DNA of 45,542 nucleotides. It comes from SAR202 cluster bacterium Casp-Chloro-G2. GTDB taxonomy: Bacteria > Chloroflexota > Dehalococcoidia > Lucifugimonadales > UBA3495. Where the stretch lies: positions 1 through 45,542 of the forward strand of contig MUCI01000064.1 of NCBI GenBank assembly GCA_002816575.1, read 5' to 3'. The position numbers and the translations under genes were made by a program. A model generated the notes under the pieces. The model was given only the letters and a program-made list of their open reading frames with translations, was not told the origin of the DNA and did no database searches. This document shows, piece by piece, positions 2,507 to 4,655 of the stretch (its first letter is position 1; every line of letters begins with the position of its first letter).

Positions 2507-3070
2507 TCATGTCGGCACTGGGGACAGCCACGCCTCTCCTATCAGAATGGCTTCCACCTGGGGCGCCGCGGCTAGGGCCAGGACGCGCACGTCGTTGTCG
2601 TCCTTCAGATCGGCCAATGGACCCATGGAGTGGGAGATGACCGCGATCGGATAATCGGGTATCCCCTGGGCCCGGGCCATCCCGCGTCCCGTGGTCTTAA
2701 CCAGTTTCTCGACCCCAATGCTGGCAGCCGGGATCCCTGCCTTTTCCATGAGTAATGCGTCGAGCACACTGCCCGACGTGCATGAGCCTCAATCCCCGAT
2801 CCCGGTGATGACCGCATCACAGGATTCGACGATCTCGTCCCGTATGGACGCGGGCGCCACATTGCCGATGAAAGGCTTCTTTCGGAACGTCACCGACTCG
2901 AAGCTGTACTTCTGCCGCAACAGGTCAATCACGGAATTGATGACCCGGTCGCCGTAGGGGCGTCCGTTCCAGATGACGCCCAGGCGCAGGCCGTCCAGGG
3001 TTCCGGTCCGTTCGGCCATCATGATCTTCCCGGTGGCCGGACCGGCGGTTGGATTCAATACTTCTATCAT
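2507..3070 (-). CDS. UGSC-family selenoprotein (in-frame UGA read as selenocysteine)
   Basis: The ATG at 3070 has a strong AGGAGG site. The frame runs to a TGA at 2789-2791 and continues in the same frame to 2507 with coherent protein sequence, giving 187 aa with selenocysteine at residue 94 in the motif GIGD-U-GSC-TSGS. The U-G-S-C redox motif after an acidic glycine-rich strand is the hallmark of the UGSC (seleno)protein family. The N-terminal half carries a WNGRPYGDR segment and the C-terminal half an ISHSMGPLADLKDDNDV segment. The reaction is unknown; a redox role of U94 and Cys97 is inferred from the motif. The preceding gene on the same strand (3139-4251) is its likely partner, 68 bp away. 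Selenocysteine machinery is not in the window, so a pseudogene with a nonsense mutation remains the alternative. Confidence 0.85.
2764..2781 (-). promoter_or_regulatory. Candidate bacterial SECIS hairpin in the UGSC gene
   Basis: Seven bases after the UGA on the coding strand the sequence can form a short stem, GCAC pairing with GTGC, around a 10-base loop that begins with G (GTCGGGCAGT). Bacterial SECIS elements lie inside the coding region just after the UGA and carry a G at the start of the apical loop, so position and loop fit. The stem is only 4 bp, 5 with a G-U pair, so this is a weak structural call. Confidence 0.4.
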
Positions 3071-3138
3071 GGAGACCTCCTATTCGCCGTGATGCGCTAA
3101 GGTAAAAATCGAACTGGTCCTGCAAAAGCTGCCTGCCC

Positions 3139-4251
3139 CTATACGGGGTGAACCGCCACGGTCATCGGATCGGTGGAAACGCCGTAAGGCGCCAGGAAGC
3201 ACAACCGGGGACCGGCATTGCCGCCGCCGACCACCACGTAGATGTCGGAGCGTCTCAGCAGCGTGGTGTCGTCGAACATGATTCGGTCGTACTCGTGGGG
3301 CTTGAAGACGTAGGCGTAGCGGTCTTCATCCCCTGGCTGCACCGCCTGCGCCACACCTGCGAACCCGTCGTATTCCGAAGAATGGAGCCCCCAAAGCCCT
3401 CGGCGCTTCAGGTCGGCGACCGAACGCTTGCAGTTGTCCATCAGGTAGCGGCGAACGTCGTGTTTGCTCCAACCGCGCTGGATGAACAACTCGGCGAAAT
3501 GAGGCGGGACCAGCAGGATGTAGGTGCCCCGGTAGAAGTCATAGGTGGAGATGGCGTCGGCCATGGAGTCCAGCATCAGCTCGGGATTGGCCGTGCGCTG
3601 GCAGTAGACCTGGTAGGGGCCGGGGTAGGTGGACACGGCAGTGACCGTGCTCTGCTCCCGGTCGAATCCCAGCATCACGTGCAGCGGGTCCCAGGAAGTT
3701 TCCTCGTTCTCGGCGATGCAGTAATGGCCTCGGCCCGGATTGCCGAACTGGCCGCGCTGGATGCCGTCGGGCCGGGACTCGGTGCAGTTCCAGAACAGCA
3801 GACTGATGGCCCTGGCCACGGTGCTGCTGGGCCGGTTTCCGGCGGAACTCAGCAGGTACATCCCGCTGTTGAAGCCCAGGTCTCTGCCCATCGGGCCGTT
3901 GACGATCAACATGGGCCAGGCGCTGCCCAGGGTGGCCATGTGGTTGAACCGGAAGTCGGGATGGCAGATCGCTTCGACCGAGGCCACCAGCACCGGCATG
4001 TACTCCTTCTTGCAGCCGGCCATGACGGCGTTGATAGCCAGGTGCTCGGCGGTAATCACGCGGTCCCGTTCCGGAACATCTCCCAAAGGCCGGCCGGGTT
4101 CTAGTCCCGCGTAATCCAAGAACTCCATCACTTTCATCTCGGTGGGCGGCACCACCGGCAGGCCATCAGTCCAGCCCCTTTCGAAATACAGTTCCATGGC
4201 TGCGTCCAGGTTTTCCACTGAGATTCGGTCTGCGGTCAATCGATCGACCAT
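3139..4251 (-). CDS. Uncharacterised UGSC-partner protein
   Basis: A 370-aa soluble protein of unknown function. It opens with YFERGWTDGLPVVPPTE and contains LAINAVMAGCKKEYMPVL, PMLIVNGPMGRDLGFNSG and HYCIAENEETSWDPLHV, phrases I associate with uncharacterised proteins encoded beside, or fused to, UGSC-motif proteins. ATG at 4251 is preferred because GAGGTG lies five to six bases upstream; a GTG at 4263 in the same frame has no such site. The UGSC gene follows 68 bp downstream with its own strong ribosome site, so the two are probably one transcript. Conserved Cys residues (for example in MAGCKKEY and HYCIAENEE) could interact with the selenoprotein. The catalytic role is unknown. Confidence 0.8.
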   Translation of the reverse strand: MVDRLTADRISVENLDAAMELYFERGWTDGLPVVPPTEMKVMEFLDYAGLEPGRPLGDVPERDRVITAEHLAINAVMAGCKKEYMPVLVASVEAICHPDFRFNHMATLGSAWPMLIVNGPMGRDLGFNSGMYLLSSAGNRPSSTVARAISLLFWNCTESRPDGIQRGQFGNPGRGHYCIAENEETSWDPLHVMLGFDREQSTVTAVSTYPGPYQVYCQRTANPELMLDSMADAISTYDFYRGTYILLVPPHFAELFIQRGWSKHDVRRYLMDNCKRSVADLKRRGLWGLHSSEYDGFAGVAQAVQPGDEDRYAYVFKPHEYDRIMFDDTTLLRRSDIYVVVGGGNAGPRLCFLAPYGVSTDPMTVAVHPV

Positions 4252-4655
4252 GGCGCACCTCACAAATGTTGTTTGGCCAGTCCGAGGAGATCAGTTGGAC
4301 TGGCCTAGTGCGGGACCCGGCACGGAGAGTGCGGCGGAGCCTTGGGCTGATGTCACGGACCGCCTTGGGCCAGGGTCCATTGGTACAACTGTAATCGGTA
4401 TAAACAAGGGTCGACAGATACAGTTGCATCATCCGCAATGATGCAGATGCATCAATTAACCAAGGACTCCCCCGGCCAAGAACTCCGGACCGTTCGTACT
4501 CGCCGGCTTCAGAATCAGGAAAGGTCTCGACCAGCGCCTACCCGAACTCCACCGGAACATATGGGGCGGCGGTTCTCATTGGTGGTAGAATCATATCTCC
4601 ACGCGCCTCGATGAGCCGCCAGAGCAACCCACCGAGTAGTTGAGGAGGAGCAATC
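4252..4655. promoter_or_regulatory. Divergent intergenic region with candidate operator at 4425-4453
   Basis: This 404-bp gap separates the minus-strand UGSC pair from the plus-strand catabolic run and has no gene. At 4425-4445 the arms TGCATCAT and ATGATGCA flank the spacer CCGCA. Immediately after, GATGCATC (4446-4453) is itself palindromic and repeats the ATGCA core. Such a cluster between divergent genes fits a repressor or activator site. No regulator gene is nearby and no convincing -35/-10 pair was found. Confidence 0.4.

Follow-up and report, generated by a model that had tools for sequence, protein, structure and literature searches.

A UGSC-family gene with a probable selenocysteine codon and its recurrent partner gene in a SAR202 cluster bacterium

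The DNA analysed here, which we call the window, is a stretch of 45,542 nucleotides from the SAR202 cluster bacterium Casp-Chloro-G2 (contig MUCI01000064.1 of assembly GCA_002816575.1). On its minus strand lies a gene of the UGSC family with an in-frame TGA that is predicted to encode selenocysteine (Sec), and upstream of it a second gene that we name the partner. The features of the locus are the following:

2507..3070, minus strand: UGSC-family selenoprotein gene, 187 residues with the predicted Sec at residue 94; based on PF24696, the read-through translation and the ratio of nonsynonymous to synonymous substitution rates (dN/dS)
2789..2791, minus strand: in-frame TGA (predicted Sec codon) in the UGSC motif, residue 94, with Sec at the first position of the motif
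2780-2782, minus strand: codon of residue 97, the likely resolving Cys; C at +3 in 124/124 TGA-bearing homologues
3076..3081, minus strand: Shine-Dalgarno sequence AGGAGG, 5 nucleotides ahead of the ATG, read directly from the sequence
2759..2777, minus strand: bacterial hairpin of the Sec insertion sequence (SECIS) type, with an 8-bp stem GUCGGGCA/UGCUCGAC and the loop GUG (2767-2769)
3139..4263, minus strand: partner gene, 374 residues, upstream of the UGSC gene on the same strand with a gap of 68 nucleotides

The UGSC gene starts with an ATG at 3070, passes through the UGA at 2791-2789 and ends with a TGA at 2509-2507, with a single internal TGA, and the residues flanking U94 are GIGD-U-GSC-TSGSVLDALLMEK. 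A preliminary description of this DNA had given the coordinates of the gene correctly but without its strand, which is established here. It had also claimed a continuous reading across the TGA, a ribosome site and membership of the UGSC family, and all three claims held: the read-through frame covers the 187 residues, the AGGAGG stands 5 nucleotides before the ATG, and the protein matched PF24696 with 142.2 bits (E=2.3e-41, 170 of the 172 positions, gathering score 25). Regarding the genetic code, ordinary TGA stops end 9 of the 26 long open reading frames (ORFs) of the window; therefore the code is the standard one, and a changed code was ruled out.

The in-frame TGA is conserved far beyond this gene. 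There are seven UGSC genes in the genome of the window, each with one in-frame TGA, and the TGA was present in all 91 UGSC matches across 12 congeneric metagenome-assembled genomes (MAGs), where a single fragment has two. At the order level 79 of the 147 genomes have UGSC, with exactly one TGA in each among the matches listed; the alignment used for the genome scan carried an X at the Sec position. Named genomes were scanned with patterns drawn from other parts of the protein, the UGA not being included, and 53 of the 54 UGSC loci had TGA at the site, the motif being deleted in the remaining one. Furthermore, G at +1 and C at +3 are invariant in the 124 aligned TGA-bearing sequences. This invariance and the 91 matches of the genus argue that the in-frame TGA is not due to chance. 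Two deviating copies were also observed. The first (L199 817-1245 minus, on contig C9 of G001) is truncated and holds two in-frame TGAs; the partner was not found near it, and it is possibly decaying. The second, in the Dehalococcoidia isolate 277c_29 (L182, near 4270), shows an in-frame deletion of the stretch with the UGA (DYLIT-CSSCSVHDG), due either to an assembly error or to a genuine loss.

In place of Sec, Cys stands at the site in 11 loci carried by plasmids of haloarchaea, Arthrobacter, Embleya, Roseovarius and Variovorax; these hosts of the Cys forms are haloarchaea, actinobacteria and proteobacteria. The preliminary description had named U, Cys or Thr as the residues to look for at position 94; U or Cys was found, and no Thr was seen among the UGSC homologues compared.

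Both sides of the UGA evolve as protein. Compared with the ortholog in the congener G007, to which the window protein is 87% identical over its full length, dN/dS has the value 0.14 for the part before the UGA and 0.06 for the part after it; therefore both halves have been under purifying selection as protein, which bears out the earlier claim that the gene is not decaying. The hairpin-forming stretch is identical in the G007 ortholog, with synonymous changes in the adjacent codons.

The hairpin lies 11-29 nucleotides past the UGA. When the sequence behind the UGA of 20 diverse UGSC members was scanned without guidance for short hairpins of any kind, the top one had its loop at nucleotides 22-24 (the T of the TGA being 0) and its inner six pairs were formed in 20 of 20 members. 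Its covariation score was 0.314 compared with 0.093 for shuffled alignments, none of 500 shuffles was as high, and shifting the stem arms abolished the signal. Since the single-sequence fold of the window hairpin was only a modest gain over shuffles (z -1.6), the case for the hairpin rests on the covariation, which is illustrated by the variant stems CGUGCA/UGCACG, CGUGGA/UCCACG and CGGCAA/UUGCCG. Pairing in the stem would account for the joint change of the protein residues at +6 and +9. At least six of the eight pairs are present in all 124 TGA-bearing sequences, and between one and eight in the few Cys homologues; an Rfam search of the UGSC region gave no match.

Could the UGA nevertheless be a true stop, the gene being in decay or giving a 93-residue product, with a relic or a separate ORF downstream? 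A GTG-started ORF is indeed present downstream of the UGA, and three genes of the Sec machinery were not found in this MAG (see below). However, a dN/dS of 0.06 after the UGA, a UGA kept at one and the same codon throughout the genus, Cys versions that read straight through in other lineages and a conserved, covarying hairpin are not what a stop would leave, and this explanation is largely refuted and very improbable. Even less probable is a variant tRNA that inserts Cys or some other residue at the UGA: this would agree with the Cys of the homologues, but the congeners possess tRNA-Sec of the standard kind (anticodon UCA) together with selA and selB, a SECIS-type hairpin would not be needed and TGA terminates other genes.

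Several observations weigh against the reading of the gene as one for a UGSC selenoprotein. The MAG of the window has 1.9 Mb and is 75.6% complete, and selA, selB and selC (tRNA-Sec) were not found in it; a DNA search with the tRNA-Sec of a congener gave no match either. These three genes occupy separate contigs in relatives, so that the chance loss of all of them would be about 1.5% (~0.24^3) if independent, and they are also missing from the congener G002, which is 78% complete. In addition, the window protein scored 102.2 bits with NF041046, under the curated cut-off of 125, which was passed by a paralogue from the same genome (161.6 bits); therefore we place it in a divergent UGSC subfamily.

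The search for the sel genes suggested by the preliminary description thus succeeded only in part, as selD is present and contains an in-frame TGA of its own close to the N-terminus (L019 1862-816 minus, on contig C22 of the window's genome, with the context SHCAG-U-AAK). The other candidates were rejected: the tRNA genes retrieved were tRNA-Ser, Leu, Trp, Gly and Tyr according to ARAGORN, the SelB-like match on contig C27 (190 bits) and a short one at the end of C51 were EF-Tu-like, and the SelA-like match on C49 (54 bits) was under the cut-off, similar weak matches occurring in genomes with a true selA. Among the congeners, tRNA-Sec (anticodon UCA) was found in 8 of 12, selB over the cut-off in 9 of 12 and selA in 9 of 12, and selA was over the cut-off in 127 of the 147 genomes of the order.

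Partial tRNA-Sec copies (the 3' 65-69 nucleotides) were observed near the full gene in G010 (C31, 151031 and 152179) and G007 (C27, 79215 and 80667), and more 3' copies in G009 (C94, 10739, 4511 and 3375) and at contig ends in G003, G004 and G008; G004 has two full copies. The partial copies resemble leftovers of elements integrating into selC. Their position, beside full copies and at the ends of contigs, suggests that selC is a target of integration and is poorly assembled, which explains the missing selC more readily than the missing selA and selB.

The absence of three unlinked genes at this completeness, repeated in G002, might also mean that the species or strain recently lost its Sec machinery, in which case the seven UGSC genes and selD would now be dead, although formerly selenoprotein genes. 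A recent loss in this lineage is possible but unlikely, because the eight UGA genes are intact, and we give it a low probability. All eight retain the UGA and open frames, the hairpin keeps at least six of its eight pairs in every TGA-bearing sequence, the tRNA-Sec of the genus sits at contig ends and next to partial copies and is hence badly assembled, and the assembly of the window is the smallest in the genus. We hold, on the comparative sequence evidence, that the UGA at residue 94 is almost certainly decoded as selenocysteine.

The second main result concerns the partner. We searched for it with a profile built from three homologues, counting those on the same strand and within 1.5 kb of UGSC. 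In the window's genome the partner accompanies UGSC at each of the seven paralogous loci, and it does so at 36 of 37 loci in the genus, 23 of 29 in the order and 13 of 13 on plasmids, as well as at 48 of the 53 named-genome loci having enough upstream sequence. Moreover, the two genes are fused in frame, with the UGA kept, at three congener loci (L196, L197 and L198), and an in-frame fusion with Cys is found in Variovorax. Taken jointly, the decoding of the UGA as Sec and the pairing of UGSC with the partner have in our judgement a probability of about 90%.

The partner protein had no Pfam or NCBIfam family match, and it was not recognisable as a pyruvoyl-bearing second subunit of the GrdE or PrdA type in the Pfam, NCBIfam and fold comparisons. 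It carries an invariant Cys: Cys84 is present in 24 of 24 aligned homologues, and Cys182 in 21 of 24. Its best structural matches, to class I fumarate hydratase (Z 4.1, root-mean-square deviation (rmsd) 5.9, 194 aligned), were under the trustworthy level and we did not build on them.

To our knowledge, no function is known for the UGSC proteins. The AlphaFold2 model of the UGSC protein (predicted local distance difference test score, pLDDT, 87) has alternating strands and helices, five helices in total, with residue 94 at the start of a helix directly after a strand. Its top structural matches were generic flavodoxin-like or Rossmann-like folds, the best natural chain being 8s7v_H (Z 9.7, rmsd 2.9, 127 aligned), so the modelled fold would not obviously be a thioredoxin fold; the UGSC profile, run against the sequences of the PDB, gave chance-level matches or designed proteins only. 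In the profile searches a UGSC paralogue matched the GrdB family TIGR01917 (E 2.9e-6, 26.5 bits, cut-off 602) over the Sec region, residues 82-159 aligning with model positions 330-402 of 431, and TIGR01918 (E 1.5e-5, 24.2 bits, cut-off 65). PF07355 gave no match in the UGSC search. The pattern UxxCxxC, reported for GrdB/F/H (PMC6778437, PMC13188914), is present in 109 of the 124 UGSC members. These weak but significant likenesses suggest that the other UGSC members are distantly related to selenoprotein B of glycine reductase.

Regarding the neighbourhoods, the gene order is trxB-trxA-partner-UGSC in Arthrobacter and partner-UGSC-trxB in Roseovarius. Because of the GrdB matches, the UxxCxxC pattern, these thioredoxin neighbours and the alternating, flavodoxin- or Rossmann-like model, we propose that UGSC and its partner form a two-component, thioredoxin-reduced enzyme that would cleave a C-X bond reductively, like GrdB or D-proline reductase. 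We give this proposal roughly an even chance. On the comparative evidence, the hairpin starting 11 nucleotides past the UGA directs the insertion of Sec at residue 94; U94 is predicted to stand at the helix start, with Cys97 as its likely resolving thiol. In the proposed enzyme, the product of the partner gene (4263-3139) would bind the substrate, probably a small organic molecule, and the U94 selenolate would attack it while held by the partner, with reductive cleavage of the C-X bond. A selenenylsulfide with Cys97 would then form and be restored by thioredoxin. Every one of these catalytic steps is put forward by inference.

Some results speak against the proposal. The window UGSC protein itself had no GrdB or PrdB match and it lacks the second Cys of UxxCxxC, having Gly at +6; therefore it must not be named GrdB. 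The motif scan found clear thioredoxin-system genes only at the Arthrobacter and Roseovarius loci and at none of the other scanned loci, and the structural comparison of the partner gave no recognised fold or cofactor. The Global Ocean Sampling (GOS) study supposed a thioredoxin-like fold for UGSC (PMC2398784), and accordingly UGSC could be a general thiol or peroxide redox selenoprotein with the partner as a mere genomic neighbour. UxxC is a common redox motif and thioredoxin-system genes adjoin UGSC twice, which would fit. Nevertheless, this explanation seems to us rather unlikely, as the model alternates strand and helix with flavodoxin- or Rossmann-like best matches, the hidden Markov model matches go to GrdB and PrdB, and the partner adjoins or fuses with UGSC in bacteria and archaea alike.

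Other observations concern the plasmid loci. The haloarchaeal Cys-type pairs at L183, L186, L187 and L188 are on plasmids, next to genes for a coenzyme A (CoA) transferase, a CoA ester lyase, a tripartite ATP-independent periplasmic (TRAP) transporter or DUF6282, and at L187 and L188 partner genes flank UGSC on both sides. Phosphosulfolactate synthase genes occur near the pairs of Natrinema zhouii (L186 491-958) and Arthrobacter (L190 1-454), a possible hint of a sulfonate-type substrate. The conjugative IncP plasmid p2-T1 of Acidovorax sp. T1 (L184 2236-3792) carries a UGSC gene with UGA and a SECIS-type hairpin, plus the partner. Its annotation shows how UGA-containing UGSC genes get cut or lost, since a 97-residue hypothetical protein is all that is listed for UGSC and the partner gene is unlisted.

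As for the history of these genes, the window UGSC protein groups with full support (100/100) with proteins from a Deltaproteobacteria/Myxococcota MAG (54% identity) and a Betaproteobacteria MAG, apart from the paralogues of its own genome, and the best matches of its partner rank in the same order. This points to transfer between phyla, in either direction. For the paralogue on contig C51, the identity is 99.5% with a protein of the Chloroflexi MAG SP22 and 94% with one of a SAR202 cluster MAG, which makes a SAR202-type Chloroflexota the likely source of the window.

UGSC is a known selenoprotein family, of which the window protein is a new and divergent member; the newer part is the partner gene beside or fused to UGSC, together with the distant relation to glycine reductase. 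According to the GOS study, UGSC proteins abound in marine and aquatic environments and rank with the most abundant selenoproteins of the sea, its data holding 255 Sec and 21 Cys forms (PMC2398784). The analysis supplies a partner gene that can be tested and a likely enzyme relative, and natural Cys versions are available on plasmids of culturable hosts (Natrinema, Halalkalicoccus, Arthrobacter and Roseovarius). Our results suggest that the UGSC-partner system of marine SAR202-type bacteria is a reductase that depends on selenium and has yet to be characterised. More tentatively, and with odds that we put somewhat below even, it could represent an unrecognised class of glycine/proline-reductase-like two-component selenoenzymes, in which the multiple paralogue pairs of SAR202-type Chloroflexota would each act on a different dissolved organic compound and the Cys forms would have spread on haloarchaeal and soil-bacterial plasmids. 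SAR202 is a lineage with several UGSC genes per genome and, if the enzyme proposal is true, selenium supply would affect its breakdown of resistant organic matter.

Compared with known glycine and D-proline reductases, the UGSC proteins share with GrdB/F/H (TIGR01917/TIGR01918) and PrdB (TIGR04483) a weak but significant match in the Sec region and, in most members, UxxCxxC, as well as a two-gene arrangement with thioredoxin-system genes at some loci. However, they score far under the curated cut-offs, the UGSC protein is much shorter than GrdB, and no GrdA or GrdC was identified in the UGSC flanks examined. With the PF24696/NF041046 family the window protein shares the UGSC motif and the Sec or Cys at the key residue but it belongs to a divergent subfamily under the NF041046 cut-off and is nearer to the Deltaproteobacteria/Myxococcota and Betaproteobacteria MAG proteins than to the UGSC paralogues of its own genome. 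Finally, the GOS study describes a fusion of UGSC with a conserved domain to which no function is assigned, "UGSC/Unknown_1" (PMC2398784), and Unknown_1 is probably the present partner. Relative to that description, the free-standing partner beside each paralogue and the pairing of the haloarchaeal Cys forms are features that come from the present analysis.
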